64,000 nucleotides of DNA from Mesodorylaimus sp. YZB2_4 (lineage: Eukaryota > Nematoda > Enoplea > Dorylaimida > Dorylaimidae), in assembly GCA_030248295.1 (NCBI GenBank), contig JASANH010001563.1, forward strand, positions 744,001 to 808,000, read 5' to 3'. The first letter of the stretch is position 1; every line of letters starts with the position of its first letter. The position numbers and the translations under genes were made by a program. Shown one piece after another: positions 28,745-63,883 of the stretch. The notes under the pieces were generated by a model that worked only from the letters and a program-made list of their open reading frames with translations, searched no databases and was not told the DNA's origin.

Positions 28745-31700
28745 ATGGACGACACAAACGAGGTGTCGATCGAAATCAAGCTAACAGTTCCATCTTGTGG
28801 TCGGCCTTTGAATGTGATTCAATATGAAATTGGTTCGCAGGTGGAAGCGGCTGGTGGCATAATCGACGATCATGACCAGCTGCCGTTCGTGCCGTCAGCA
28901 CAGGTAAGCAGAAATGGCTGCTTAGGGGCCATCCATAAAGGTCGACCGCAGGCTGGGGGCAGGGGGAGGGGGATAGCAAAAAAAGGTCAGCTGCGGTCGG
29001 GGGAGGAGTACCGGCCAATGGTCGACCGCAGCAAATTTTTAAACTGTTGATGACAAAAAACACCTTTTTTATCTTCACCAGTAGTGCGCGTTCAAACCTT
29101 CTAAACTTTTTGTCTACTCTTCTCCTTGGTCGTTCATTCTCGACAATGCAATTTCGGGTTCATCAGGACTCTTATTCCCAACTGGAATGGCATCTGATCC
29201 GAAAGAGAAAAGTTTGAAGGCAATGGCTCAGCTGGTTAAGCCGTTGAACTGGCTTGCTGGCCCGAAACCCTGACTGGGAGGCCGAGGTTCTATTCCGACA
29301 GAGGACGGCAGATTAGTAGCTTGTTGCTGGCTTTGGACACCTGGCTCTGGGCGAACCCCTGCTACTGTCAAATGGCGGACGCCCACCCAAGGGGTAGAGA
29401 ATTGGGAAACTGTCCTCGAACACCAGCCCACAAGGTGACAAGAACACCACACCAGAGAAGGTCCCTAAGCTAAGCCTGAACCTATTCTCACCCAGTATGC
29501 CCTCGTGTGGAGATGCTCCCTGAAGACACAGGGAACCTGTCGTGTAGCGTTCGTTCGGGATCCCGATCCCGATAAAAAATGGTCGGGATTGAATGCTGTG
29601 AATATGTGTGAAGAAGGGGAATGGCAGAGGAAGGGATCGGGAAGGGAGTGTTCCAGAAGGGTAAGCCGGAGAAATTTTGGCGGATGATTGAAGTGGTAAA
29701 GTGGAAGGAAGGGATTAGTTTGCTAATTGGTGACTAATTCTCCCCTTTTTTGCTTGCCTGACTTTGAATGCAATTATTAATACTGCGCAAAAAAAGTTTA
29801 TATTTGCTGGCTACTTGGGGTAGACTGTAGGTTACCGAATTAAACGTCTCCGAATTGTAAGTTAAGCGAATTAAAAGTGCAAAAAACACTGAAAATCCCG
29901 ATCCCGAAAAAAGTTATCTCAAACGAACGCTACTGCCGTGAGAGCTGGTCACCTCTAGGGATAGGTCGGCATCACCTGTTTCCAGGATCGGGATCAGGGA
30001 AATCCCGATCAGGATCGGGATTTTTTTGCATTTTTCTGTTTTTGCCCATGAGTCTATTATCCTCACTAAAGCACACTTTAGTCATCCAGATTTTTTAAGC
30101 TTTTTATCAGGCCGATTTTCAGTCATTATAAATAACCTGAAATTGATGAGTACATTCTTAGTTTCGATACGCGCCCAGCAAGGTCAGCCGAGGCTAAGTA
30201 AAATCAGTAATGCTATCATTATCGATTTGAGCCGATGTTGCTGTTGTCTCTTCATCGCTACTGCTTCATGGCAGATATGATGGATTAGAGTGTACCTGCC
30301 ATGCGTATGCATATCATAATTATTAGCAGAATCCCGATGCCTCAATGTCAGGATCAGGACTGGGAGGGGTCCCAGCCTATCCCTAGTCACCTCACAGCCT
30401 CGTTTATCATATCATGACTGCTGGCCAGCTAATATGATTGGCAGTCCCGTGGAGAACTGGGCCTGCGCGGCCCAACCCGCAAAACTTTTTCAAAAATATG
30501 GGAAAAAGTTTGTGGAGGCTTTTACAAAATAAAAATCCGCTCCATGAATAAAAAAAAAAGATTTGTCTTCGAAGGAGAGGACACCTTGTCGAGCTCAAGA
30601 AAGCATAAGATCAAACATTTCACAAAACTGCGTTTCCAGGCGGAGGGGGGGGGTATGGCTGAAGCGGTCGACCATTTTTGAGGGGGGTTCGCGAGAAGTG
30701 GTCGGTAGGCGGTCAGGGCATAGGGGAGTCAAAAAATCGAGATTTTGTGCGGTCAACCTTTATGGATGGCCCCTTATGGGTGGGGCTTTGTTGTAATGTT
30801 GACTCGTGAATTTATTTTTCAGGCCATGTACGAAGAAGAAATACTGGAAGCAGTCTTTTCTGTTCGTTACCCTGGCACTTCGGTGCGCAGCGCGTCCATC
30901 GCATTCGCTCGAGAATGGTGTCCAACTGTAGGCCACGGCTTGCACGAGGCTGTCCGTTTGGAATTCTTGAATCCGGATTCGTACTATCTCCGATGCAAGC
31001 CCAGTCACTACAACGTGCCCGCACTCAGCTTTTCATTCGGTTCATTTCGAAATTGCGGAGTTTTCGAAGATCACTTCAGAATGATAGGCGGAGCTAAACC
31101 GATCACGCTCGATTTTCAACACGATTGCAATCGGATGGATTTGTATTGCATGTACTTGTATCAAGTGGATGAGCCAGTGCTTTATCAGAATCGGGGTCGT
31201 GGTGGACAACAGAGGAGGACTGGCATATTGATCAATCGAATCAACTTTGCTTATTCGTCAATTCATTCGATCATTGTCGACTACACTGGCTATTTTAGCG
31301 ATGAGTCGGGTGAAAATGTCGTCCGAGTCACCACTCTTTACTTTCGTCTCAAGTACCCGCCAAAGATCGAGGCCTCGGTGTGGCGGCAAAACATTGCAGA
31401 TGCATTCGAAATTTGTATGGCCGGGCGACGTGACGTCAGATATGAAAGGGTGATAGAATTGCCCGACTGCGATGCCAAAACGATCGGAAAATCGAACGTT
31501 CTTAAAGTCGTATTGCGAAAGAAATTTCCCAACGACAATCAATGGCATCATTGGGTCAATGAAATATTGAGTCGGGTTCGAACTCGGACTTCGTGCCGGG
31601 TGTATTACACGGGAATACGGAATAATGTGTACGCTCCGATGCACGAGACGGTGACGGTAAGGGTCCTGTGGGAAGTGGCCAAGGCCCGGATGCTGGGATA

Positions 31701-34700
31701 ATCCACTCCTTTCTGAATCCATCATCTTAGGGATAGGGGTAGTACTTTCCCAAGAGCCCCCAGGGGAGGGGAACATGCACCGACACCCCCTATCCCCAGT
31801 GCCAACGCTGCGGGGTTCTTCAGTTTCAAGTTGAGATGCGGCTGGCACTGTTTCAGGTGAACGAGGCTGATATGCCGTCGTTCAAATGCTATTATTTGTT
31901 GAAAGCTTTGATTTCAACGCGAACGTTCACAATCGAAGATCAAGTCAGAGCGCCCTTCATCAGTTACGTATGCGCCTGCGCCAAACAAAACGAACGTGCA
32001 ACTGAGATCGCATTGAGTCAATTGTTATCAGCAACTGATGAGGAACGTTACTTTAGTTTGATGAATGCTTTTCGTAAAATTTTTGAAGTTTACGCAAATG
32101 AAGCTGCTCGGGCTCACGATCAGATTGCTGAAAATCAGTTCGAGACCGAATCGGTAAGTGGGAGATTTCGATGATTGGGTGGTCATAATTGAACGATATG
32201 TGTTTTTTGTATTTTAGATTATCAAAAATTGTGTGAAAGTTAGAAAGTTGGTGGTGACGCCAACCCGGAAAATGTTGCTGGCACCAGAAGTGATTGTGTC
32301 GAACAGAACTTTGCGCAAGTTCGGCGAGGAGTACGCTCTGCGAGTTGTCGTTAGGGATGAAGATGGTCGACATATTTATGGAACGCGTTTGAAGAATGAA
32401 GTATTGAAGGTAAGTGACGAGTGGTGGCAGAAATCCTCGGGATTTGTGTGTTTGAGCAAATAGTTTTATGGCGCTACTCACAATCGAACTGTACGAGGCG
32501 TATGGACAGCACAGCGGTTACTTGATCCGTGGCTTGGCGGGTTATACCTCGGCTTCTCATGCCAGGTGTGTTGTCATTTCAGACTTTATCCATAGCCAAG
32601 CTCTATGCAACGCTCTTGAGGGATAAGGAACGCATGCATCGAAAACCATGTTTTGCCTAGGTGGAAGTTGAACCCTCTTCTGTGAGTGCACCCCTGGCGT
32701 GGGAGGCAGACGCCTTAAAACCAACCCACCAGGCCACCGCACTCGCAGCCGGGAAAATCATTTCTATAACGTGTCCTTTCGCATTCGAGTGCGCATACCT
32801 TCGTTCGGTAAAACGGTAAAACATGAACTTGGTTGCAATGCATCCCAGATATTCACTGTGTACTCTCGATAGTACAATAAACAATTTTGCTGAATATTTT
32901 CTTATTTTCAGGCATGGCTAACTAGTCTCATGAACGGGGGATACGCTGTTGGAAGTCGTCAGTACAAGTTCCTCGGCTGGTCCAACTCGCAGCTGCGGGA
33001 CCACGCCTTCTACATGTACGCGACAACGCCGGACGGAAGCGACATAGCGACCATTCGAAAGTGGATGGGCGATTTCACGGCCATCCAGAATGTGCCCAAG
33101 CTGATGTCCCGAATGGGACAGTGCTTCACGCAGGCACAGACGTCGCTGGACCTGCCGTGGGAGGGCGGGCTGATCGGAGAAGAGGACGATATTATGGGCG
33201 GCGAACCACAACAATCCGGAGAACTCTATTGTTTCTCGGATGGCATCGGGCGTATTTCGAAGAAATGCGCGGAAGAAGTGGGAGGTGAGAGCCCTCGAGT
33301 GCTGACTGTTGACTCGGCTTCTTTGCAGGTGTGCAAGCAACTGGACGTGACGCCCGTTCGTTCGGCCTACCAGATTCGCTATGCCGGTTTCAAAGGCATG
33401 CTCAGCGTGGATCCGTCGATGGACAACGATCCGAGTGGAAAATGGGTCATGCTGCGCAAAAGCATGCACAAGTTCGAATCGGACATGAGCCACACTTTGG
33501 AGATTGTCAAGTACAGCATGCCCAGTAAGTGTTTCGTGGTTCGTGCGATTGTCGGACTGATTGACAATCAATTTCAGGCTCGGTGTTCCTGAATCGTCCG
33601 TTAGTGATGATTCTTGATCAGGTCAGCGAGAAAGCTGGACGACGTCGACAGAGGAATGCTGCCGCCCAGGCTGCTGGATTGTCGGCGGACGTGCATCGAC
33701 GGGTCTGCAATCGAATTCACGAATTGTTGGATGACGAGCTTTTTTTCATGGCCGATATGCTGGTCGATGAGAAAGCCAGTGTGACTGCCTTGTCGACGCG
33801 TACGCCAGTGAAGATTGACTTTAAAGGGTTGAAGGAGGCTGGGTTCACGTTGACTACTGAGCCGTTCTTCCGCGGCCTTTTGTTGGCCATTCATCAGTAC
33901 ACGATCAGTAAGTGCCTTGTTTCTGAAGTGTGCAAATTCGGAGCGGCAGTTATTTCTTTGGTTGTTTTCAGAACAGCAGTTATGGAAACTGAAAATCGAA
34001 GTGCCGCCTCATCTTGGCAGAACCATGTACGGAGTGCTGGATTTAACCAAATCGCTGCAGTATGGCCAGATCTTCGTCCAATATTCGAAAGAATTGAGCA
34101 AACCTGGCGAGGAGCTGATTGTGGTGGAAGGTAGAATAACGCTTAACAATTTGTTATTCTTCGACGACTGGACTTCCTTCTTATGCAGGCTACGTGATGG
34201 TGACGAAGAATCCGAGTGTCGTGCCAGGCGACGTTCGCATCCTGAAGGCCGTGCCTCTTTCGATGGTGCCTGGTCTCAGTCATATGTTCGACGTGATTGT
34301 GTTTCCCCAAAATGGACCAAGGCCTCACACTGACGAAATGGCTGGTAAGGCGTTGGCAGAACCAGGTAAGAGAGTGAGTGGCTGCACGATGTGAGTTTTA
34401 GGATCAGACTTGGACGGCGATGAGTACTCGGTGTATTGGGATCCAATATTGATGTTCGATAGGAGTCAGATGCAAGTCCCGATGGATTTTCCGAAGGAAA
34501 CACCACGTAATGTTGTTGGTGGTGTGAAGGTAAGAATCCTTTATTTCTATGGTACTCACCTTAGGCTTGATGCATTTATTTTAGAATGAAGACATGATCA
34601 AGTTTTTCGTCGATTATCTACAGCAGGATAGTATCGGAGTCATTGCCAATGCTCATTTGGCCATTGCCGATCGTCTGGGCCTGTTTAGTAAGACGGCTGA

Positions 34701-36946
34701 GTCAATCGCCAAGAAGCATACCATGGCGGTTGATCTGCCAAAGACGGGTAAAGCTCCTGAACGTTTGACCGAGGAGGAACATCCGAAGGTGTGGCCAGAC
34801 TTCTTTGGGAAGTATAACAAACCGATGTATCGAAGTCAACGTTTGGTCGGGAAGTTACACAGGTGAGGAGTGTGTGGACGAATTGTGATTGGGACTTGGA
34901 GTATTGTCTTTTCAGGCGCGTGAAGAATGCGTCGGATATTATTCGTTTGGGTCAAGACTCGATTTCGCGCATATCGGCAAATCAAGACTATTTCGACGAG
35001 CATTTGAAGGTGGACGGATACGAACAGTTCCAGGACGATGCCACCGCTCTTCGCAACCAATATTGCCAGCATTTGCAGCTGCTCCTTGATCAGTACGGAG
35101 TTGCGGACGAGTCGAGTTTGATCTCTGGCCATATGGTCATAATCAAAAATAGATTATCGGACAGGGAGAAAGAGGACTTTTCTCTGTTCAATACGGAGAA
35201 GATCATTGAGTGGCGATTGACGCATATTTGTCGGGTGTTCCGACGCAAGTTCTTCAACGAGGACATCGGGGCTGAAAGCGAAGAATTGCTCGAGCATCCG
35301 ACCGAAGCCATGCAACAGAAGGCGAGCGCTTGGTACGTGGTCACGTACGGACAGCAGCAGGCGCTGCGAGGCCGGGTCATGCTCAGCTTCCCGTGGATCG
35401 TGTGGGAGGTGCTGAGGTACATCAAGTTAAAACGAATGTTCAGATTTTTTAATGTTCCTGCGTCAATGCATGCGGCGGCGACAAATCGTTCAGCGCAACC
35501 ATCCGAAACGTGGTCTGTCGATCCGACGGCTGAAGCGTTGAGTAGAATGATCGAGGTAAGCACACGCTTGGGTTTATTGGGGTGGAAAGGCGCAAACAAC
35601 GATTCGATGTGTCCAGTGAGATGGCCGCGCTCGCGTGTGATGTGACCGTTGGATACAAGTCCAGCTTATAGCTAGGAGCCGATCATAGATTGATCGAGGA
35701 CACATGATTTGTGAAAGTTCACCTTATAACCGGCTTAGCTAACAGGGTGATAAAGGACGCATGATTTGTGAAACTGGTTTCGAAAACGTGGGGTGGTCGA
35801 CGGATACGGTTGTCATGTTTCAGACGTACTGTACTAAATCGCGGGAAAATGTGGCTCGTTTCATTCGGATAATTGCGGATGAAGAACAACATGATCCAAG
35901 GAGCGGCAATGTGGTGGCCTTTTACGCCAAGGTGTACTTTCCTGATTTCGGACATTTGCTGGCCGTGGTCCTGAATTGGATCGAGCAAGAAATTGGATTC
36001 GACAAGGAGAATTCGTTGAAGCCGATTTATATCGCCCGCCTCTTAGTCGATTTCTGTCACCAACGCCAGTACTTGGAAAAGAAATCCGTATTGGAGAAGA
36101 TGCCAGTGGAGCGCAGGCGTTTAGTATCGATCGGGGAAATACTGCTGGAATTCTTGAAGTATCTGGCTTCATTCAAGCATCGAGAATCGATGGTGAAAAA
36201 GATCTGCGAAAACGAGGCCGTGATTGATTTAAGGCGACACCAGTTGAGATTGGTGGGCCAGTTGGCGTTCAAGTCCTTTCACCATGTGGCCTGGACGAAT
36301 AGATTCGATAGCTTGCATTTGGAAAGTATGTTGCCCTGATTCCGTGTTTCCTGGTTTACCATATCACTGAACGCAGGGTGAAGGAAGACAGTACACGAGA
36401 CATGATATACCCGACCGCGAGTGCACACTTGCCGCTAACTGCGCACCCACTGTGAGAGCGGACTTCTGCCCTGGCGTAGGACATGAGGTGGATAGGTGGG
36501 TATCGTAGGTGACTGATGGTTAGACTGGTTTCGTAGGTGAAAGTCGACTGGCGAGGGCTGCATTGGCTTGGGACAGAGAAGAAATGGAGGCGGTTACGGT
36601 CCTGTTCGACTACGAGATGGTCCATCAATTATCGGAAGAGGAAGTGGAAAGACGACTCAAGGTGTGGTCCGGAACTGACGACGTTAGTATTCGATGGATG
36701 ATGGTAAGCATGGGGGATGTTGCCAGAGGGCTCCTGGCTCCGTCCCTGCTCCAGTTTTCTTTGGACAGCTGCTTTTTTGTTATAATTTTTCTTTTTCAGA
36801 ATAAAGCGGTCAAAAATGAATTTTCTGTGACGGCGGCGGGTACATTGGAATCTCGACAGGCTCTGCACGATATATTGCTCTCTGATCAATTGAATCATTG
36901 TTTATCGGTCAACAGAAATCCACTGTTGGATGTGTGCGAGGCGTGA
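28745..36946 (+). CDS. RNA-dependent RNA polymerase, cellular RDR/EGO-1 type, copy 1
   Basis: Fourteen exons join in frame: 28745-28903, 30823-31656, 31857-32153, 32218-32409, 32912-33524, 33578-33907, 33972-34130, 34189-34344, 34402-34529, 34585-34862, 34916-35555, 35824-36325, 36537-36703 and 36800-36946. That is about 1533 aa, or 1516 if a 51-nt segment in exon 5 (33278-33328) is spliced. The catalytic DLDGD motif (34407-34421, residues about 916-920, in GSDLDGDEYS) is the metal-binding signature of the two-barrel eukaryotic RdRPs. Flanking blocks FSDGIGRISKK, AYQIRYAGFKG, GKWVMLRKSMHKFES and IVFPQNGPRPHTDEMA are classic for the family. The enzyme copies target RNA to make secondary small RNAs in RNA interference; it acts in cytoplasm or perinuclear granules in nematodes. 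It has introns and the cellular motif, so it is not viral. Intron 1 carries a transposon. Confidence 0.93.
29224..29296 (+). repeat. tRNA-like (SINE head) sequence nested in the transposon
   Basis: The A-box is TGGCTCAGCTGGTTAAG at 29224-29240. The B-box-like GGTTCTATTCC is at 29286-29296. The expected pairing of a working tRNA is not evident. Confidence 0.5.
29540..29935. repeat. Nested inverted repeat (GTAGCGTTCGTT ends, CGGGATC-rich)
   Basis: GTAGCGTTCGTT with following GGGATCCCGATCCCG at about 29542-29575 recurs inverted at about 29888-29932. It looks like a small MITE inside the larger element. Confidence 0.5.
32590..32745 (-). repeat. tRNA-derived SINE-like repeat in RdRP copy 1 intron 4
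   Basis: On the minus strand the head reads GGCCTGGTGGGTT, GGCGTCTGCCTCCCACGCC and GGGTTCAACTTCC, then an AAAACATGGTTTTCGATGC body. It belongs to the same family as the copies at 7.9 and 47.9 kb. Confidence 0.6.
36372..36485 (-). repeat. tRNA-derived SINE-like repeat in RdRP copy 1 intron 12
   Basis: On the minus strand: CTACGCCAGGGCAGAAG, GCGCAGTTAGCGGCAAGTG, CACTCGCGG, then TATCATGTCTCGTGTACTG and CTTCACCCT. The order matches the copies at 47.9 and 63.5 kb. Confidence 0.6.
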
Positions 36947-42841: not shown

Positions 42842-44561
42842 TCTATTTGGTATTCTAGAAAACAATTGATGAGGCCGCTCGAATATGATGAAAATCCACG
42901 ACCGACTAATCGCCGGCATGTGCGTAAAGACAGTGGCAGGTGGGGCCGTGTTGCAGCCGCCAGGTGGCGCGATGAGCTCGCCAGAGTTCCCTTTACAAAA
43001 GTTGACACTCTGGGGAAGACCAAGAATAAGAATATGCACGTTTCGGTATCTTTGAACTAGAATCGATCATCGAATTGATAGAGCGATTCTAGTTTGATAC
43101 AATTCCGATGCAACCGTTTATTACACTTGTTTTCTCCAACTCCGCCTCTTCAGGGAGACTGCACCGCGCCTGACCAATTCACCATCCCATAGAATTAATC
43201 GTTCCTCACATACCAGCGCATACACTTCGGACACCTCGCTAATTGTGAGGGCACCTAGTGGGTCCTGGTACCGCATTGCATGGTTCTGCAATGCCTGACT
43301 GTCGTTGGCGCCAGGTTCGACTGAACCCGCTTGTATCCGGACCCGGCCGAAATGAACAACATTTTCTTTCTGTGGTCAGTCCAACTAAACCAGACACGTT
43401 GTAGTAAAGCTGAACAGCTTGTTCGATTGCAGGGAAGACCAAGAGACACCCATGATAATTAAGATACTCACCTCACTCGAAGCGAAAACTTAGCAAGAAA
43501 ACGTGATATTTCTATGGTCATAAATGAGAGACTGTGCTTTGAATGTGCTTCACCAGAAACCTCGACTAATATCTTTTCTGTTTGAATTGTCAGTCACTGT
43601 GAAATGATAAAAAGTACGCAAATAAGATGCATGTTAATCGTGGTTCGGTTTAGCTGGTTGGGCGGTTCGATCGAAGCTAGGCTGGTGGTTTCAGATTCAC
43701 ACTTCCTACACAGTCCACCTATGCCTGAGTAGAGTGGACTCAGCTTTGATGGTAACCATTTTTGGCCACAGGAGCTACAGCATCATCCTAGATGAATTTC
43801 AGGTTCAAGAAATTCGCTAGAAAGTCACTTGTCCCTGACTAATTTGGTGGCTAGGTGACATACCTGTGGAAGATGGGCTGCATGCAGTAAATGCTACTTT
43901 TCCTTCAAAAATCAAACAAGTGTGTCGTCTGGCAGCATTGAGCCTTTGCTTCAATCATGCTCTGATCTGTTTCCCGATGTCCAGCTTCAGGTTTTGCAAA
44001 CACTTTGCGTCTTCTTGCTCGGAATAAAAAGACTGTGCCTGTTCACGGCCTCTTAACATCTCATGAACAGTTACAGCTAAGCTAATTTTAAAAAACTCTA
44101 GATTTCTTGTAATGTACATAGTGGTAGTTTCTATATTTTTAAAATTGTTTCTGACCTAAACCTAAGCAAGTTACGATTTTTTGGCGAAAAATGACCGTTT
44201 TTGACCTTTACCGTGCTTTATTTGCATATATAGGCATTTAAAAAAGTTTTACTCTTATCTAGGCAATCAGTTTTGTGAGTACTCTCGATAGAGTACATGA
44301 AAAAGGGGCCAAAAAATCATTGGCCAAGCATATCCTACATGGGTCAAGTCTCTCAGAAACCAGCGCTTTTATAGTAGTCTTATTGTCGTGAATGAGAAAT
44401 ATTTTCGGGACACGGATAATTTTTCAACAAGAAATACTGCATCCTTCACTGGACTCGCAGCCTATACTACAGTACGCATGGTACATTCTCGCCACTTTAC
44501 ACTGCCCTCGCTGGCCCACTGCTCTGTTGGTAATTTACAGTGCCCTAGCGGCCAATACATA
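42842..44561. other. Intergenic region
   Basis: No coding exon or RNA gene recognised. The proximal 200 bases may belong to the 5' part of the MSP-domain gene. Confidence 0.45.
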
Positions 44562-45180
44562 TTTTTCTAAAAAAATCTGTTATCAGACAACGAAAAGCTT
44601 AGCCCTGCCACCCTACTCTGACCAAATTCGAGGCAAACGAGGTTGGCTGGGCTCCCTCGGCGGCACATGCTTGAGTGGGTTATATTAATGTGGACGTGAT
44701 ATATCTACGTTTATGTTGCGCTCAGGGCGAGGCTCATAATCGTACTCCACACTCCCCACAACGCATGCCTCTGTGATGTACTCGGTGCATCGTGAAGTCA
44801 TGGGGTCGATTCCCTGTGGGATTTTATTCTTCCTGTTTTTCACCAAAGGCACCCACATGAATATACTTATTCGTATTTTGGAGTAAGTCCGGAAGTTGGT
44901 GGTTTTGGAATACGATTCCGTTTTGTTACCTCGAACATACTTGGGAAACAGTGAGGACTTGCTGCAGGAAGGTTGCATCTGCCGTGACAGCACGAGTATT
45001 GCATGTCTAGCACACGCCCTGTTGCACTATTGATTAGTGACAGTGTGGCAATTCTGTTTGATCACAATTTTTCTACAAACGCCGCCGAGGGAGCCCAGCC
45101 AACCTCGTTTGCCTTGAATTTGGTTAGAGTAGGGTGGCTGGGCTGACCTTTTCGTTGTCTGATAACAGATTTTTTAGAAA
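44562..45180. mobile_element. MITE-like element with about 100-bp terminal inverted repeats
   Basis: Arms 44562-44664 and 45081-45180 are inverted copies of each other, sharing CTGTTATCAGACAACGAAAAG, CCACCCTACTCT and GAGGTTGGCTGGGCTCCCTC. I count about seven substitutions. The 416-bp interior has no ORF of note but includes a tRNA-B-box-like GGGTCGATTCCC near 44814. Weaker inverted similarity outside the arms (about 44440-44560 versus 45785-45880) suggests a larger or nested element. Confidence 0.7.
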
Positions 45181-47491
45181 TAATAGTACTTTTTCGCACC
45201 CACATTTGGGCTAGGAATTCAGCACAGATAAAAGAAATTCGTCGTCTAGTCCCTCCTGAGCTGACGCAAATTTCGTACAAAGAAGGTTGCCACGTTATGC
45301 TCTGTCACTGTGGCCTACTGCGCATAAGTTCCAGAGTGGCTGGGCTAAACAGGCAACTAATGTGGCTGTTAATAGGCAGGGGGTTTTCACAATCCATTGC
45401 CGGTTGTGCTGGTGCCGTAATGTGCCGGTTGTGCCAGCAAAAAAATCAACACTCGAGTTATTTTGTGGTGGCAAACGGGCTCAATTTCCGCAACAAATAT
45501 TCTTTGCTACAGAGAATGTACAAAAGATCGCAGGTAGATTCGTCGGTTCTTCTCTCCTGTGTGACGTTGGCCTGATCGGGAGACCAGTTTCCGGCTGCAC
45601 CACGGGGAGGTCGTCACATCGCAGCCATTCCGATACACAGACCCATCCGGCGTTGGCCGAGACCAACATTCGTGGGCGATGGCAACGGACTGACAGGCGT
45701 GGGCAACAAGACCCACATTTGTGCAGCCAATACCATCATTCGTGAACGAGCAGTCAATCGGAATGACCAGACACGGCCAGCAGCACGCTTATATGTATCG
45801 GCTATTATGACAGTGTAAACTGCCGACAGTGTAAAGGCCAGCGAGGCAGCGAAAAGCGGCGAGAATGCAGTATTATCTCAGAGATATATGATGATGTCCA
45901 GCAATTGGTCTGTCGATCGAGGTCCGATTCGACGGATGGATGGGAGGACGAGGACGATTCTCTCGCTAGGGGACGCCGTCGGCGGTCGATCGGTTGGCGG
46001 GTGGGCGGAAATAATGGTCGGTGATTGGCTGATCGGGTCCGGTCGATGAGAAATCGATCAGGAAAACAGGAGAGTGAATGGATCATCCAAGAAGGCGATC
46101 AATTCCCAAACTGAAGCAAAGGATAGTGAAAATTCTTTGCTCGACGAAGCGTGTGTGTCAAGATTTAAAAAGCTCCCATGTAGTTTGATCGTATATTGAG
46201 CGTACGATCATATACGATTTTGAAGTTTAGAGGATTGCAATTGATTAAAACGCGCCAGGAATAATTACGCGAAAAAAAAGCAAGGAAAAGATGGAGAGTT
46301 CGTCCACCTGAGCAACCGCAGATGACCAGGAGAGACTGCGAAAGATTTCGGAAAGATGGCCGCTGTTTCAGTTTATGGGCACGTGGATGTGTGCGATGCC
46401 GCCTCCTCATCTAGTACAACATCCTATTCTTAGCCAAAGCCAACATTAATTCACTCTAACCCTGTGGCGGCTTCGACAGTTCGATGGTGTCAGAAGATGT
46501 AAAGAGATCACAAGAAAGCGAAGAGGATTGCAGTGGGGCTGTAGGAATGTTTGTGGCCAATGAACTAAGGTCCTTTCCTGAAAATACCAGATATAGATCG
46601 ATTAAGGTGATTACCGATATCCTGTACCAGGTGAAAGAAGTGGGGCTCTGGGGGACACAAAACCGTCTATCCTCGAGATTGAAACAGTGTTCGGGGATAC
46701 AAGATGATTTAATCTGTTGCCTCTGTTGTTAAAATGCACGAATGCTGTAGTTCCGGATGAAAAATGATTTTGTATTGGGCGCTGGCCAGCCTCGCATTGC
46801 GTGGCCAAGGCTAACAGTAAGATGCCCAAATGCATTCTGCACAAGTGCTTGCCTAACTGGAGAGGAATGCACAGGCTGGCCAGCACCGTGAGCTGCACAG
46901 GGCGAGGACATAAGCAGTGCTTTGGGCACCTTGGTCACACGCTGCTAGCATTGTTCGCAGTGGGACTAGTTGTCATGCTCGCTGGCCAGTTCTCGCTACC
47001 AATCCAATCTTGTCAGCTGCTATGTCTGTTATCACCTCCTCGGGCCAAGTAAGCAGTTCGACCATGCCTGTCGAAGCAACACGCCTTGTCTCCTGAAACA
47101 GAGGGACCGAGTTGACCAGTTAATGACAGCTCAAAATCAGCTTCCACAAAGACTAAACGTACTTTGCATTCTCATCACAAGGTGAAAATATGGCCAACTT
47201 TGAGCTCTTCGTTGCAATAACAGACCTGAGCTGTGAGTGAACTGCGCACTGGGCCTGCATCCTACACCTAGATATGGGGTCCTTGTCCGCAGACCCATGC
47301 AGTAACATAGGCCAAATAGTGCGAAAAAGAAGAGTTCTTGAATGCGTGTATGACCAGAGTACTGTCCAGACACTTTATTGACAGAAGTTTCCTGTTGGTC
47401 CATGCAGCCGCATCTCACATGCAGAACCTTACAGCATTATACCACGGCAGAGTCTAGTTTGGAAACTGTAAAATAGACCTAGCGAGTGTGT
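45181..47491. other. Intergenic region, no firm gene
   Basis: A plus-strand frame at 46484-46732 contains VANELRSFPENTRYRSIKVI and TDILYQVK, which resembles the C-terminal helical motif of MADF/Myb-SANT-type DNA-binding proteins. No partner exon was found. Nothing else here has recognisable coding or RNA character. Confidence 0.4.
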
Positions 47492-47563
47492 TCCCGGGTA
47501 GTATAGTGGTGAGTATTCCCGCCTGTCACGCGGGCGACCGGGGTTCGATTCCCCGCCCGGGAG
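47492..47563 (+). tRNA. tRNA-Asp (anticodon GTC)
   Basis: A 72-nt cloverleaf: acceptor stem TCCCGGG pairs with CCCGGGA, discriminator G. The A-box is TAGTATAGTGGTGAGTA and the B-box GGTTCGATTCC. Anticodon stem CCCGC/GCGGG closes the CTGTCAC loop with GTC at 47525-47527. A run of T shortly downstream (47568 onwards) fits RNA polymerase III termination. No intron. CCA is not encoded, as expected in eukaryotes. Confidence 0.97.
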
Positions 47564-47696
47564 AGTATTTTTTGTTTAGTTCCGCACCTTACTGTCGGGT
47601 AAGGTATGCACATATTCTGTCCCCAGTGACGCAGATACTCCGGTGGGCACACCCCAACTGCGCGCTGCCATCTGAACGCTGGTCATGAGGGCCCCG

Positions 47697-48695
47697 CCGA
47701 CCGGACGCTAGGTCAACTAGGCGCTGCCTAGGTAGGCGATTCCAGCTGGGCGCCAAGCCACGTAGGCGCTGTCCAATTGGGCGCTGGCCTAGCCTTGTAC
47801 GAACTGAGTGAGCGGCAACTTGACTCATAATTTAGTCTATATGTGGCCATCACTCGTGCTGCGGTGTTCACATTCATGTTTTACCACATCGCCAAACGCT
47901 TATGCGCACTCGAGGGTGAAGGGACGCATTTTACACGAAATGATTTACCGGCCCGCGAGTCGAACACTCGCCCGTAACTGCGCTCTTGGCGTGAGATGCA
48001 GACGCCTAACCCACCAGGCCACGAGACCGGTGGGTTGGGCGTCTGCCTCAGTGTGGTCTGCCTGTGTGGTCAAAACTTTTGAACTTTTGAAAGCTCAGCA
48101 CCGCATTAATTTATTGGAGATGCGAAAAAAAGAGCACAGGTTGTAAAGGCTGAATTTAGACACGTCAGGATGGAACATTTTATTCCCTGAGAACGGATCA
48201 TTCTCGCTCATCTTCTGGTGATGCCACGAAGTCCAAAAGATTGTAACGAGTATCAAGCGACGCGCTGAAGCCACGATGGAGAATCCTGCCCAAATCCGAG
48301 CTGAAGCCATTCAAAATGCCTCCATTGCAGCTTTGGGTCAATATCCCAGTACGAATACGACTCGAGAGCTGGTGGCCGCAAACTCCACGACCAGCCCGCG
48401 AATCCAAATCCACAAAATCGGCAAGCATAGTTGTCTCTGACACGCTTATCGCATGGAGTGATATTGTCGTTTTTTTCGTTTTTTCTGGGACAGATACACA
48501 AATGCATAGGTGTGATCACGAGTGAAATTGAACTAAAAAGAAGTTTGAATTGCCACGCGTCGAGTTTCCGTCAACGCTTTCTGCGCTTTTTTACTGCCCA
48601 AGCGTCAAGATGGCTCGGCGCCTATTCGACCAGCGCCTAGTTAGTTGGCCGTCGGTCAGCTGGCAGCGCCCAATTGACCGCGTCCAGTTGGCCGT
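47697..48695. repeat. Foldback-like region: arrays of a short GGCGCTG repeat in inverted orientation
   Basis: At 47697-47790 a degenerate unit of about 17 nt around AACTAGGCGCTG recurs several times. At 48607-48695 the same unit appears on the other strand. CAATTGGGCGCTG at 47774-47786 is exactly inverted at 48664-48676. The interior holds a SINE-like copy (47897-48035). Foldback transposons have such repeat-built inverted ends, but that assignment is tentative. Confidence 0.45.
47897..48035 (-). repeat. tRNA-derived SINE-like repeat (best-preserved copy)
   Basis: On the minus strand: GTGGCCTGGTGGGTTAGG (A-box region), CGTCTGCATCTCACGCC, AGCGCAGTTACGGGCGAGTG, then B-box TGTTCGACTCGC. The non-tRNA body reads ATCATTTCGTGTAAAATG and CTTCACCCTCGAGTGCGCAT. 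Confidence 0.7.
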
Positions 48696-54369: not shown

Positions 54370-54440
54370 TGGGCTTAACACAAGCAACTTATCTGCAATT
54401 CACATGCAGGAAAAAATTGAAGGCATTCTCGTTCCAATAC
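54370..54440 (+). repeat. 71-nt direct repeat, copy A
   Basis: Begins TGGGCTTAACACAAGCAACT. The same 71 nt recur at 54911-54981 with seven substitutions and no gaps. Confidence 0.85.
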
Positions 54441-54910: not shown

Positions 54911-54981
54911 TGGGCTCAACACAAGCAACTTATCTGCAATCCACGTGCAGAAAACAATTGAACGCATCCTCGTTCCAATAC
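54911..54981 (+). repeat. 71-nt direct repeat, copy B
   Basis: Begins TGGGCTCAACACAAGCAACT; partner of 54370-54440. Confidence 0.85.
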
Positions 54982-57691: not shown

Positions 57692-60600
57692 ATGGATACC
57701 TTGCAAGCGGGTGAAGCGGTTGGAACGGACGAAGGCAGTAAACCGCCCTTGATAGAAGTCAGGCTAACGGTTCCTTCGAGTGGTCGAACAGTCGACCTGA
57801 TCAAATACGAAATTCGTTCTCAAGTGGAAGCAACCGGTGCGGTGATCGACTCTGATCCGTTGCCCTTCCTGCCGTCAGCTCAGGTATGAACAGGCCAACG
57901 TCACAATAGGCTCGCTTAAAGTTCGCTCCTTCTTGCAGGCGATGTACGAAGAAGAGATCTTGGAAGCGGTCTTTCCGATTCGCTACGGCTGTGCGTACTA
58001 CACAGTTCGCGAAGCGTCCATCGCCTTTGCTCGAAGGTGGTGCCCGACAGTCGGCCACGGATTGCACGAGGCCGTCCGTCTGGAATTTCTCAGCCCAGAT
58101 TCGTTTTATCTTCGCTGCAAGCCCAATCATTTCAACGTGGCTGCCGCCAGCTTCTCCTTCGGCTCATTTCGAAATTACGGCGTGTTCGAGGACCACTACG
58201 AAATGGTGGGTGGTCCGAGGCCGATTGTGCTCGACTTTCAGCACGATTGCAATCGAATGGATTTGTATTGCATGTACCAGGCCAACGACCCCGAGCCACG
58301 GCATCAACGCGGCGCTCGAAACGGGCCCCGCATCTTGATTAACCGACTCAACTACAATTATTCCTCGATTCACTCGATCGTGGTCGATTACGCGGGCTTG
58401 TATCCGGGCGACGACTCGAAGAACGGGAATCCGGAACTGGCGACCGTGCTCTACATTCGTCTCAAACATCCCCCCAAGATCGAAGCTGCCTGGGGCAAGA
58501 CCTTTCAGTCAAACAATCGTGCCACCGCGAGTGCCATGACCGCCTTCGAGTCGTGCATGCTCAATCGTAGGGCAGTTCGATACGATCGTGTTCGAGAATT
58601 ACTCGACTGCGACTGGGAAACGATCGGCAAGTGCAACGTGCTCAAAGTGGTCCTGCGTAAGTTCACTGCGGGCGCCGAGGACGAACGACGAAACCGAGGT
58701 GGAATGGGCGACAACGAAGACGACTGGCACGATTCGGTCAACGAAATACTGAGCCGACTGAGGACTCGCACCTCGTGCCGAGTCTATTATACGGGAATAC
58801 GGAACAAACCGGGCTATCCCCCGGGCGTCACGGTAAGACAAGTGCGGGTTCTGCCGCCCGAACTCGCAGCAAATGACGTTTTTCAGATCAGCGAGCATTT
58901 TCTTCCTTCGTTCAAGTGCTATTACTTACTGAAGGCTTTGGTGGCAACGCGGACTTTCACTATCGAAGACCAGGTCACGCCGCCCTTCTTCGGTTACGTG
59001 CGTTCCTGCGTGATTCAGAACGAACGCGCTGCGGAGATCGCCTTGAGTCAATTGTTGGCCGCGGCTGATGAAAATCGATATTTCAGTTTGATGAACGCCT
59101 TTCGCAAAATTTTCGAAGTTTATTGTAACGAGGCCGCGGTGTATTCTCAGAATGGTCAGACTGGGGCGACGGCTGGGAAGAACCAGAAACGGTCGACCAA
59201 CGTGGCTGTCACCTTCGAAGACGAACCGGTCAGACCTTGATTCCTGCTGCCAACAGCATTCAGACTGCTTTTCGATTTCAGATTGCCAAAAACTGCGTGA
59301 AAGTTCGAAAGTTGGTCGTGACTCCGACTCGGGAAATGCTGCTGGCGCCGGAAGTGATTGTGTCGAATCGAATTTTGCGCAAATTCGGCGAGGAGTACGC
59401 TCTGCGAGTGGTGATCAGGGATGAAGACGGGCAGAAAATTCACGGGGCGCGGATCAAGAACGATGTTTTGCGGGTAAGTGGATCCGGCAGTGATGGGATG
59501 GGGTTGACACGCAAAAATTTCCATCAGGGTTCGACTTTGACGGAGGTCACGAGAATGAGCCGGTGTCTGGTGGCGCCCTCTCTGCGCAGGGGAAGTAGAA
59601 TAACTGCGGGAGGATGAGGAGATTCGTATTTCGAACAAGGCGATATTTAGGTATCAAAAGGGAGGACTTGAATATCAGGTACATGGCATCGGCAGCTCAT
59701 GCGTGGTAACAACATGCCGTTTCAATAGTCGTCCCTGCAGTATGCAGTTTCTGCTTTGCCCCACTTTTCGTATTTTTCACTTTAAAAAGCAGTGCGGCAA
59801 AGCAATGAAGTGGTAAAACCAACCCCGACTTCGTCCCTGATGAGGCCTCATCCCGATCGCTAGTTCTGAGGAGCAAGCAGATGTGCCATCTGTGCCATGC
59901 AGACTGTTCTGAGTTTACCTTCGTAATGGGTGCTCTAACTACCGTTTTGGTTGCAGAATTGGCTGACCAACCTCATGACAAAAGAATTCATTATCGGAGA
60001 GCGCCGGTATCGCTTCCTCGGCTGGTCCAACTCGCAGCTGCGGGACCACGCCTTCTACATGTACGCGACAACGCCGGACAGAAGCGACATAGCGACCATT
60101 CGAAAGTGGATGGGCGATTTCACAGCCATCCAGAATGTGCCCAAGCTGATGTCCCGAATGGGGCAGTGCTTCACGCAGGCACAGACGTCGCTGGACCTGC
60201 CGTGGGAGGGCGGGCTGATCGGAGAAGAGGACGATATTATGGGCGGCGATCCGGACCCAATCACGGGAGAGCTCTATTGTTTCTCGGATGGCATCGGGCG
60301 TATTTCGAAGAAATGCGCGGAAGAAGTGGGAGGTGAGAGCCCTCGAGTGCTGACTGTTGACTCGGCTTCTTTGCAGGTGTGCAAGCAACTGGACGTGACG
60401 CCCGTTCGTTCGGCCTACCAGATTCGCTACGCCGGTTTCAAAGGCATGCTCAGCGTGGATCCGTCGATGGACAACGATCCGAGTGGAAAATGGGTCATGC
60501 TGCGGAAAAGCATGCACAAGTTCGAGTCGGACAAGAGCCATACTTTGGAGATTGTCAAGTACAGCATGCCCAGTAAGTCGCCGTGCTTTGCTTGTGGACG

Positions 60601-63600
60601 CCCTCGAGAGGGACATATTTCAGGCCCGGTGTATTTGAATCGGCCGCTGGTGATGATCCTGGATCAAGTGAGCGAGAAGACGTTACGTGGAAGGCCGAGG
60701 GATGGCGCTGCTGCCGGGCTGTCGGAAAACGTGCATCGCAAGGTGTGCAATCGCATTCACGAACTGTTGGACGACGAGTTGTTTTCCATGGCCGACATGC
60801 TGGTGGACGAAAAGGCCAGCGTGGCCGCACTGACGACGCGGACGACTCTGAAGATTGACTTTCGGCGACTCAAGGAGGCCGGCTTCACACTGACCACCGA
60901 GCCCTTTTTCCGCGGCCTTTTGTTGGCCATTCACCAGTACACGATCAGTAAGTGCAGCCCTGGTGCCCGGGAGGACGAACAGGGTGTTCCCTTTTAGAGC
61001 AGCAGCTGTGGAAGCAGAAGATCGAGGTGCCGCCCCACTTGGGCCGGACCCTGTACGGCGTGTTGGACACGACCAAGCTGTTGCAGTACGGCCAGGTGTT
61101 TGTGCAATATTCGAAAGATCTGAACAAGCCGGGCGAGGAGCTGATTGTGGTTGAAGGTAGGATGAGCGTTGTGGGATTAGAGGATACGAGGGGCAGTCGG
61201 GATGAGTTGCCCACGCCAAAAAGAAGGGCAGAGTTGCTACTCATGTCTAGCTAACTTTAGCTAGCGTCCGTTTTAAAGGACAGAGGCTGGCAGATTGCTG
61301 CTCTCACTTTAAGGCGATGTGATGGTGACGAAGAACCCGTGCATCGTGCCGGGGGACGTGCGTATCTTCAAGGCCATGCCAGCTTCGGTGGTGCCGGGGC
61401 TGGCGCACATGTTCGATGTAATCGTGTTTCCTCAAAATGGACCGAGGCCGCATACTGACGAGATGGCTGGTGAGAACAGTTTCAAACCTGTCCCTCCCTG
61501 CAGCACTCGAGGCTGTGTGTTGGCATTTAGGCTCTGACCTGGACGGCGACGAGTACTCGGTCTACTGGGATCCAATTTTGATGTTTGACGAGCGGCAAAT
61601 GCAGAAACCAATGAATTTCCCAAAGAACAAGCCGACTGACGTGGAGGGTGGAGTGCAGGCGAGTGTTTATATTATCTGTCGTCGATGCGGTCTTAGGACT
61701 TGTTTCAGGACAGGCACATGGTCGAGTTCTTCACTCGTTATTTGCAGCAAGACAGTATCGGGTCGATATCGAATGCTCACTTGGCCACTGCCGACCGGGA
61801 AGGCCTGTTCAGCGAAAAGGCCATGGCGATCGCAGTCAAGCAGTCCATGTCGGTCGATCTACCGAAGACGGGCGTTCCCGCGGAGCCATTGACCATGGAC
61901 GAGAGGCCGTACATTTGGCCCGATTTCTTCGAGAAGTACCATCAGCCGATGTATCGAAGTCAGCGCCTGGTGGGCAAGCTGTACAGGTATGGGCGTGTCA
62001 GAGCTAGTCTCGAGGTTCGACTCGGGGGACTCCTCTTACAGGCGTGTGAAGAATGCGTCGGATATTATCCGCCTGGGCCAAGATTCGATTTCGCGCCCGT
62101 CGGGGGATCGAAGCTGGTTCGACGAGCACCTGGTAGTCCCCGGCTTTGAGCAGTTCCAGGACGACGCCATTCTGCTGCGCAACCAGTATTGCCAGTACTT
62201 GCAAATGTTGCTCGATCAGTACGGCGTTGCGGACGAGTCCAGCTTGATCTCTGGTCACATGGTGGTCATCAAGAATCGGCTGTCGGACGGGGAGAAAGAG
62301 GACTTTAGCATGTTCAATACGGAGAAGATAATCGGCTGGCGAATGTCGCAGGTTAATCGCAAGTTTCGACTGAAATTTTTCGACGAAGACATCGGGGCTG
62401 AAAGCGAAGAATTGCTCGAGCATCCGACCGAAGCCATGCAACAGAAGGCGAGCGCCTGGTACGTGGTCACGTACGGACAGCAGCAGGCGCTGCGAGGCCG
62501 GGTCATGCTCAGCTTCCCGTGGATCGTGTGGGAGGTGCTGAGGTACATTAAACTGAGGCGCACTTTCGAAACGTACGCGCGTCGAATGCAAGAACGGATC
62601 ATCGATCCGACGGCGGAGGTGCTGGCCAGGACGATCGAGGTAAGTGCGCTTTTTTGGTGTTACATTCGTGTCGATTTCGGGTTTTGGTTTCAGGAGTATT
62701 GCACTCGTGCGAGGGACGATGTGGATCGTTTAATCAAGGTTGTTACGGAGGCCGAAACGCAGGATGCGAGGAGCGGCGACGTGGCCACTTTCTACACCAG
62801 GGTCTACCAGCCGGACTTTGGACATCTGCTGGCTGTGGTCCTGCACTGGGCCGAGAAAGAGATAGGCTTCGAGAAAGAGAACTCGCTGAAGCCGATTTAC
62901 ATCGCCCGTCTGCTGGTCGACTTTTGTCAACAGCGCCAGTACTTGGAGAAGAGATCGGTGTTGGAAGAAGAGCAGTCGACGTCGCCCAAGCATTTGGTGT
63001 CGATCGGGGACATTCTGCTGGATTTCTTGAAGTACTTGGCTTCGTTCAAGCACCGCGAATCGATTACGCGGAAAATATGCGACGACGAGGCCACCATCCA
63101 TTTGAGGCGTCGTCAACTGCGTTGGATTGGACAAGTGGCCTTCAAATCGTACAACCACGTGGCCTGGACCAATCGCTTCGACAGTTTGCATTTGCAGAGT
63201 AAGATCGGTTTTGGTGACCCTGCTTCGAAGTAAATTAGTTTTTATGGGTTTAGACGAAAGTCGAATGGCGAGGGCGGCATTGGCTTGGGACCGAGAAGAA
63301 ATGGAGGCCATCACGGTGTTGTTGGATTTTTCAGTCATCCGGAGGGTGCCCGATGAAGAAGTGGAGAAGCGTTTGAAGATGTGGTCTGGTGCTGACGACG
63401 TCCGTATTCGCCATAAAACTGTAAGTGTGCTTATTACGCACTGTACATAGATAGCATTGGAGGGTTGTTGTTGGCCAAAAGCATTTGTCTGACTGCCGAA
63501 TGTGCCTGTTGAGTGATCACATGACTAAACGCCAATGCGCACTCGAGGGTGAAGGGGCACATTACACACGAAAAGATTCATCACCGCGAGTCGAACACTC

Positions 63601-63883
63601 GCCTGTAACTCCCGTGAGCATACCTGAATTCAAGATGGGCGGGCTGGTTGATGTGGATGGCTTTTGCTCATAGCTAATTATACAATATTAGGGGGTCTGG
63701 GGTGTTTGAATTCGTTATGGGCGAAAAAAATCGGTGCTCTTTTCATTTTAGAATGACGAATATTTGGTGACGGCTGCGGGAACGTTAGAAGCTCGCCAGA
63801 TGTTGCGCGACATTCTACTGTCGGAGAATTTGAGTGACTGCATTGTGGAGAATAAGAATCCGTTGTTGGATCAGGAATACTAA
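57692..63883 (+). CDS. RNA-dependent RNA polymerase, cellular RDR/EGO-1 type, copy 2
   Basis: Fourteen exons match copy 1 one for one: 57692-57883, 57939-58832, 58887-59228, 59282-59473, 59957-60572, 60624-60947, 60998-61156, 61314-61469, 61531-61658, 61709-61986, 62042-62639, 62694-63198, 63254-63420 and 63752-63883. That is about 1560 aa, or 1543 if 60326-60376 is spliced. Exons 4, 7, 8, 9, 10 and 13 have exactly the same lengths as in copy 1. The catalytic GSDLDGDEYS is intact (residues about 961-965), as are FSDGIGRISKK, AYQIRYAGFKG and FPQNGPRPHTDEMA. The enzyme should make secondary small RNAs from target templates. The coding sequence looks more GC-rich than copy 1, and introns are mostly shorter. 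The exon 9 donor is GC (GCGAGT) instead of GT. The N-terminus is 11 codons longer and exon 3 ends with an extra Gln/Thr/Ala-rich stretch absent from copy 1. Confidence 0.93.
63525..63625 (-). repeat. tRNA-derived SINE-like repeat in RdRP copy 2 intron 13
   Basis: On the minus strand: CTCACGGGAGTTACAGGCG, B-box TGTTCGACTCGC, then TCTTTTCGTGTGTAATGTG and CTTCACCCTCGAGTGCGCAT. The body is nearly the same as at 47897-48035. Copy 1 has no repeat in its corresponding intron. Confidence 0.65.

Follow-up and report, generated by a model that had tools for sequence, protein, structure and literature searches.

A segment of about 560 nt in one of three RNA-dependent RNA polymerase (RdRP) genes of the nematode Mesodorylaimus sp. 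YZB2_4 is, with high probability, an interlocus (ectopic) gene-conversion tract. The gene that carries it, copy A, is an old duplicate of a second gene, copy B. The partner of the conversion is the lineage that comprises copy B and a third gene, copy C, from which the sequence likely moved into copy A. Silent divergence between copies A and B is low in this segment and in one shorter segment further downstream, both sharp-edged, and only there, which supports the proposal, made earlier from the sequence alone, of gene conversion between RdRP paralogs.

Three RdRP genes on one contig

The window, meaning the whole 64,000-nucleotide stretch of DNA that was analysed, corresponds to bases 744001-808000 of a contig (C25) in a 145-Mb assembly of 1067 contigs. 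The Pfam domain PF05183 has 14 match places in the assembly, all on C25, and these represent three genes, copies A, B, and C; the domain scores above its cut-off, as expected of cellular (metazoan) RdRPs. Copy A occupies 30823..36946 of the window on the plus strand and has 13 modelled exons in an open frame, with matches to PF05183 and to PF25359 (E=6e-19 in a scan of copy A), a PH-like domain described as associated with metazoan RdRPs, which points to an animal. Its first exon is left out of the model; a tblastn match of exon 1 of copy B (E 7.7e-17) places a probable 5′ exon near 28769-28903. Copy B, at 57692..63883 on the plus strand, has 14 modelled exons in an open frame, contains PF05183 and encodes 1560 aa as modelled. 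Copy C is a third intact RdRP gene, located outside the window on the minus strand at about C25:730783-737778 (L009/L010). No internal stop interrupts the modelled exons of any copy. Both A and B encode the stretch DLDGDEY, which aligns with DLDGDQF in RNA-dependent RNA polymerase 2 (RDR2), a PDB chain, and fits DxDGD, the catalytic motif of cellular RdRPs.

Copies A and B are old duplicates, as 396 of 836 comparable codons outside the two tracts described below differ silently and the introns have diverged in sequence. The encoded amino acid differs in 340 of 1210 codons. The two gene models nevertheless share the position and phase of all 12 introns that they have in common. One modelled intron of copy B begins with GC (GCGAGT, window 61659-61664), as does its equivalent in copy C; copy A has GTAAGA there.

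Several other features were recorded in the window. The sole match at the Rfam gathering level is a tRNA-Asp (GTC) gene at 47491-47564. Two copies of a 61-nt repeat, 84% identical, lie at 47885-47945 and 63518-63578, the latter in the last intron of copy B, and a direct repeat of 71 nt is found at 54370-54440 and 54911-54981 (90% identical, 541 nt apart). An inverted repeat at 44560-44664 and 45081-45185, with 105-nt arms that are 91% complementary and 416 nt apart, is a possible mobile element. The telomere motifs TTAGGG, TTAGG, and GATGGGTTTT gave 0 exact matches.

A sharply bounded tract in copy A

Tract 1 extends over 32969..33530 of copy A on the plus strand; from its start to the end of the exon at 33524 it measures 556 nt, and the donor GTAAGT follows. 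It corresponds to 60014..60578 of copy B (plus strand) and to C25:734890-735454 of copy C (minus strand, outside the window). The exon that holds it, 32912..33524 on the plus strand, is delimited by splice sites and an open frame, would be two exons if 33278-33328 is an intron, and covers positions 60-238 of the RdRP profile (PF05183 E=7.5e-46). Within the tract, 546 of 562 nucleotides are identical between A and B, leaving 16 mismatches and one 3-nt gap; the comparison of A with C likewise gives 16 mismatches in 562 and 3 gap columns, and B and C differ by 2 mismatches in 565. The sequence-only reading had described about eight single-base differences and one short diverged patch over some 560 nt, and those counts prove exact: the single bases are at 33035, 33079, 33118, 33382, 33457, 33478, 33486, and 33493, and the patch is at 33205-33223.

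Both edges are abrupt, and the old divergence is kept in both flanks. In a three-way alignment cut into blocks of 60 columns, A and B are 58% identical (35/60) in the block that starts at 32914, 92-100% identical in all nine blocks between 32974 and 33510, and 60% identical in the block that spans the end of the exon and the intron after it. On the left, the tract begins 57 nt into the exon, with 29 A/B differences in 32905-32968 and 0 in 32969-33034. The right edge falls directly past the donor GTAAGT, where identity ends at 33530 in A and 60578 in B. The sharp ending inside this donor and the strong divergence immediately outside the tract, in the upstream sequence and in the introns, had both been read from the sequence before and are borne out by these figures. 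Divergence is again normal in the following exon (9 silent differences in the 15 codons from 33586).

The diverged patch (33205..33223, plus strand) holds 8 substitutions and a codon-sized indel of 3 nt between A and B. It directly precedes the conserved stretch YCFSDGIGRIS, and comparison with the PDB chain RDR2 shows variability in this region too. Point mutation subsequent to the conversion does not fit, as the changes are too many for so short a stretch. The simplest reading is an island of A sequence that escaped conversion, or else two abutting tracts, and the patch itself is presumably best read as unconverted A sequence. A more elaborate account, in which both tracts homogenise chosen polymerase segments of paralogs that otherwise diverge fast while selection keeps the unconverted loop before FSDGIGRIS different, so that the paralogs share a core and retain a loop of their own, is unlikely.

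Silent sites and a second tract

At silent sites, the identity of tract 1 goes beyond chance. In the tract only 8 of 165 codons differ silently between A and B, whereas 396 of 836 do so in the remainder of the aligned coding sequence, tract 2 excluded (p = 1.7e-29), and the contrast persists when the probable intron is removed (8/148, p = 6e-26). A permutation test, in which 1051 degenerate codons with the same amino acid in both copies were shuffled 5000 times and runs of silent identity were scored, returned two segments above all 5000 shuffles: 32969-33583 (as scored) and 35262-35418. The next four best A/B segments were not significant in the same 5000 shuffles, and the longest exact aligned matches between A and B outside the tracts measure 26 nt. 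A uniform silent divergence along the two genes had been named beforehand as the outcome that would speak against conversion; silent divergence instead drops about tenfold, in these two segments only.

The second segment, tract 2, lies at 35262..35422 of copy A (plus strand) inside a 640-nt exon and contains 1 mismatch in 161 positions. Its partner in copy B is 62388..62548 (plus strand), and it is also present in copy C, at C25:732115-732355 on the minus strand. Its permutation p of 0.0002 is the floor of 5000 shuffles; silent differences between A and B amount to 1 in 48 codons in the core and 3 in 50 with slightly wider bounds. A Pfam scan of the exon that holds tract 2 gave no match.

Low silent divergence could also arise if purifying selection at the nucleotide level, on an overlapping signal, an RNA structure or a regulatory site, had kept the segment from ever diverging. 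Each tract does code for a conserved segment of the polymerase, FSDGIGRIS in the case of tract 1 and AWYVVTY in that of tract 2, as aligned with RDR2. The catalytic DLDGDEY block, however, was left unconverted and has 8 silent differences in 19 codons of its 20-codon block, with 9 in 12 in the next block. Nor is the silent rate between B and C reduced in tract 1 (2/171 against 18/1157, p=1, from few events): constraint at the level implied by A and B predicts 0.27 B/C differences there, and the probability of 2 or more is 0.03. For tract 2, the B/C comparison (0/51) holds too few events to tell. Together with an edge that is sharp in mid-exon, a probable intron that is identical as well, and codon usage in the tract that is foreign to copy A, these observations render constraint extremely unlikely, and the identity of tract 1 is not explained by it.

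A probable intron within tract 1

Tract 1 probably contains a small in-frame intron of 51 nt at 33278..33328 (plus strand, GTGGGA...TTTGCAG), as judged from splice signals, size and alignment, although the stretch is also open as 17 codons. It is identical in A, in B (60326-60376) and in C, while the other introns of A and B have diverged. Once its 17 residues are omitted, PF05183 scores 171.1 bits in place of 157.4 and the best PDB match 96.8 bits in place of 80.0, and the alignment with RDR2 has a 17-residue gap at this very place. The donor GTGGGA is weak; the length of 51 nt fits copy B, in which 10 of 13 introns measure 50-61 nt. A coding interpretation of the stretch was set aside in favor of the in-frame intron, which fits the size and improves both the family and the PDB scores. 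Another candidate, a 44-nt intron from GTGAGA (33285) to TTTGCAG (33328), was rejected since it would break the frame.

The identity of this probable intron in all three copies argues against coding constraint and also against a cDNA, rather than chromosomal DNA, as the template of the conversion. Were the 51 nt coding, both tracts would fall within exons, as a cDNA template would have it. Tract 1, however, also shares the intronic GTAAGT and stops at that next donor, and the exon that follows is normally diverged, so that a cDNA template has a vanishingly small probability. If 33278-33328 is spliced, it would be direct evidence that non-coding DNA was copied as well.

Copy C, the partner lineage and the age of the event

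Copy C is inverted relative to copy B, from which it is about 64 kb away, and is located some 6 kb outside the window. The two copies are 98.5-98.8% identical in two aligned blocks; their similarity sets in sharply at about the start codon and extends to approximately 240 nt past the stop codon. Among 1560 codons, 9 differ in amino acid and 23 silently, an excess of silent changes that is expected if both genes are under purifying selection. Intron 7 of copy C (C25:733353-734311, in L009) carries an insertion of approximately 800 bp that is absent in B. With inverted ends CCAGCATCGGCCGACCC and GGGTCGGCCGATGCTGG between two GCTAGCG-like flanks, it looks like a non-autonomous DNA transposon.

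Two nearly identical copies create a situation in which assemblers can err, and reads of B or C might have been collapsed or stitched into A. After such a collapse, A should be identical to one of the two; it differs instead from both B and C in tract 1 at 15 substitutions and the 3-nt indel, which makes an artefact unlikely. Two separate tracts with an internal patch would moreover require several errors, and neither the window nor the loci L001-L013 contain any N. An assembly artefact is accordingly a very improbable source of the pattern.

Copy C carries both tract 1 and tract 2. Of the 16 A/B substitutions in tract 1, 15 are common to B and C, as is the indel; the private changes are at 33079 in B and 33010 in C, and A has the other state at both. 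Since the differences are shared by B and C and A lacks their private states, the exchange took place with the B/C ancestor or before either private change arose. The conversion partner is thus the B/C lineage. The sequence-only reading had placed the partner at 60014-60578, and a matching tract does exist there, though the role belongs to B and C jointly and not to B alone.

Jukes-Cantor distances at four-fold sites are 0.90 for A and B outside the tracts, 0.050 for A and B in tract 1, and 0.025 for B and C. An earlier description of the conversion as recent is therefore apt in relation to the age of the A and B pair (0.05 against 0.90) and not in relation to the B/C split (0.025), compared with which the event is about as old or older. 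Silent divergence in tract 1 (8/165) exceeds that between B and C (18/1157) with p 0.011. When the patch is left out (6/162), p becomes 0.106, and an event before the B/C split is thereby only suggested. On these silent-site counts, conversion of tract 1 may somewhat more plausibly be placed before the B/C duplication than after it. If B and C were later homogenised, their split would be older than it appears.

Probable direction of transfer

Base composition and codon usage indicate the direction in which the sequence moved. In copy A, GC3 is 69% in tract 1 (118/170) and 53% outside the tracts (613/1163; p 5e-5), and the difference remains without the probable intron (109/153, p 1e-5). Copy B has a GC3 of 69% outside the tracts (803/1162) and 72% in tract 1. 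A codon-usage score, defined as a log ratio trained outside the tracts, was compared with held-out windows of the same sizes as the tracts. Tract 1 of copy A scores +17.0 (+17.8 without the probable intron); tract-1-sized windows range from -21.6 to +0.9 in A (n=71, overlapping) and from -2.9 to +30.2 in B (n=76). Tract 2 of copy A scores +7.7, and a score of 7.4 is reached by 0 of 148 windows of A and 29 of 158 windows of B; windows of this size have a maximum of +2.9 in A (n=148) and span -5.2 to +12.1 in B. The diverged patch, with -2.5 in A and -1.2 in B, hardly separates the two copies.

As the codon usage of the tract in A is B-like, the tract looks imported, and a transfer from the B/C lineage into A is likely on the grounds of base and codon usage, in a comparison confined to copies A, B and C. 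Two sequences alone cannot give direction; GC3 and codon usage nonetheless match B rather than A in each of the tracts, and the opposite course, with A as donor to the B/C ancestor, seems unlikely. GC-biased repair unaccompanied by import could mimic part of the raised GC of the tract.

Proposed course of the conversion

Whereas the tract, its edges, the excess of identity over chance and the presence of the same tract in a third copy are direct observations, the repair mechanism that we infer would run as follows. A break in copy A may have been repaired with a similarly oriented B/C-lineage copy, approximately 27 kb distant, as template, and some 560 bp of A, the probable small intron included, would have been overwritten. 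Copying would have halted at the next intron, where A and B no longer match; with introns so diverged and poorly alignable, copying that relies on matching sequence is expected to end where an intron starts. The loop at 33205-33223, with its 3-nt indel and several mismatches, would have been left unconverted. Tract 2, at least 161 bp long (35262-35422), may have been converted along with tract 1 or in another event of this sort. A separate donor gene was also considered: at least three loci matched the DNA of tract 1 and at least three that of tract 2, and no separate donor was found among them.

Relation to known systems and implications

The tracts are an ordinary case of a known process. 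For Caenorhabditis paralogs, a review states that interlocus conversion is usually reported for exons, that diverged introns may impede it, that surviving tracts are mostly 50-200 nt with a range to thousands, and that conversion events in C. elegans often include introns, 15% in one survey (PMC3966223). The RdRP genes resemble those cases in that conversion joins paralogs, and they differ in a tract 1 that is longer than most, and in the animal and gene concerned. For the GOT1Sd and GOT1Sr genes of the copepod Tigriopus californicus, conversion is described as largely restricted to exons, one intron having become unalignable (PMC3728101). Islands of divergence persist amid converted sequence in those paralogs, as in the RdRP genes; the copepod case is supported by several populations (PMC3728101), and the RdRP tracts by one assembly. 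Experimental interlocus tracts in yeast and rodents have mean lengths from approximately 50 to several hundred bp according to a review (PMC3924818). Both RdRP tracts have lengths within or close to this range, although the data tabulated there are mitotic laboratory events. Among the papers listed on RdRP with gene conversion, on animal RdRPs and on conversion in general, titles and abstract openings name no case of conversion between animal RdRP paralogs; an article on bdelloid rotifers (PMC7943196) contains both terms, RdRP and gene conversion.

For the RdRP family, the finding bears on phylogeny and dating. In trees of animal RdRPs based on the tract region, copy A would be drawn towards the other two copies, and the dating of these paralogs should omit 32969-33530 and 35262-35422. 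The locus offers a clean worked example, in which three copies that go back to an old split and a young inverted duplication are combined with two conversion tracts.
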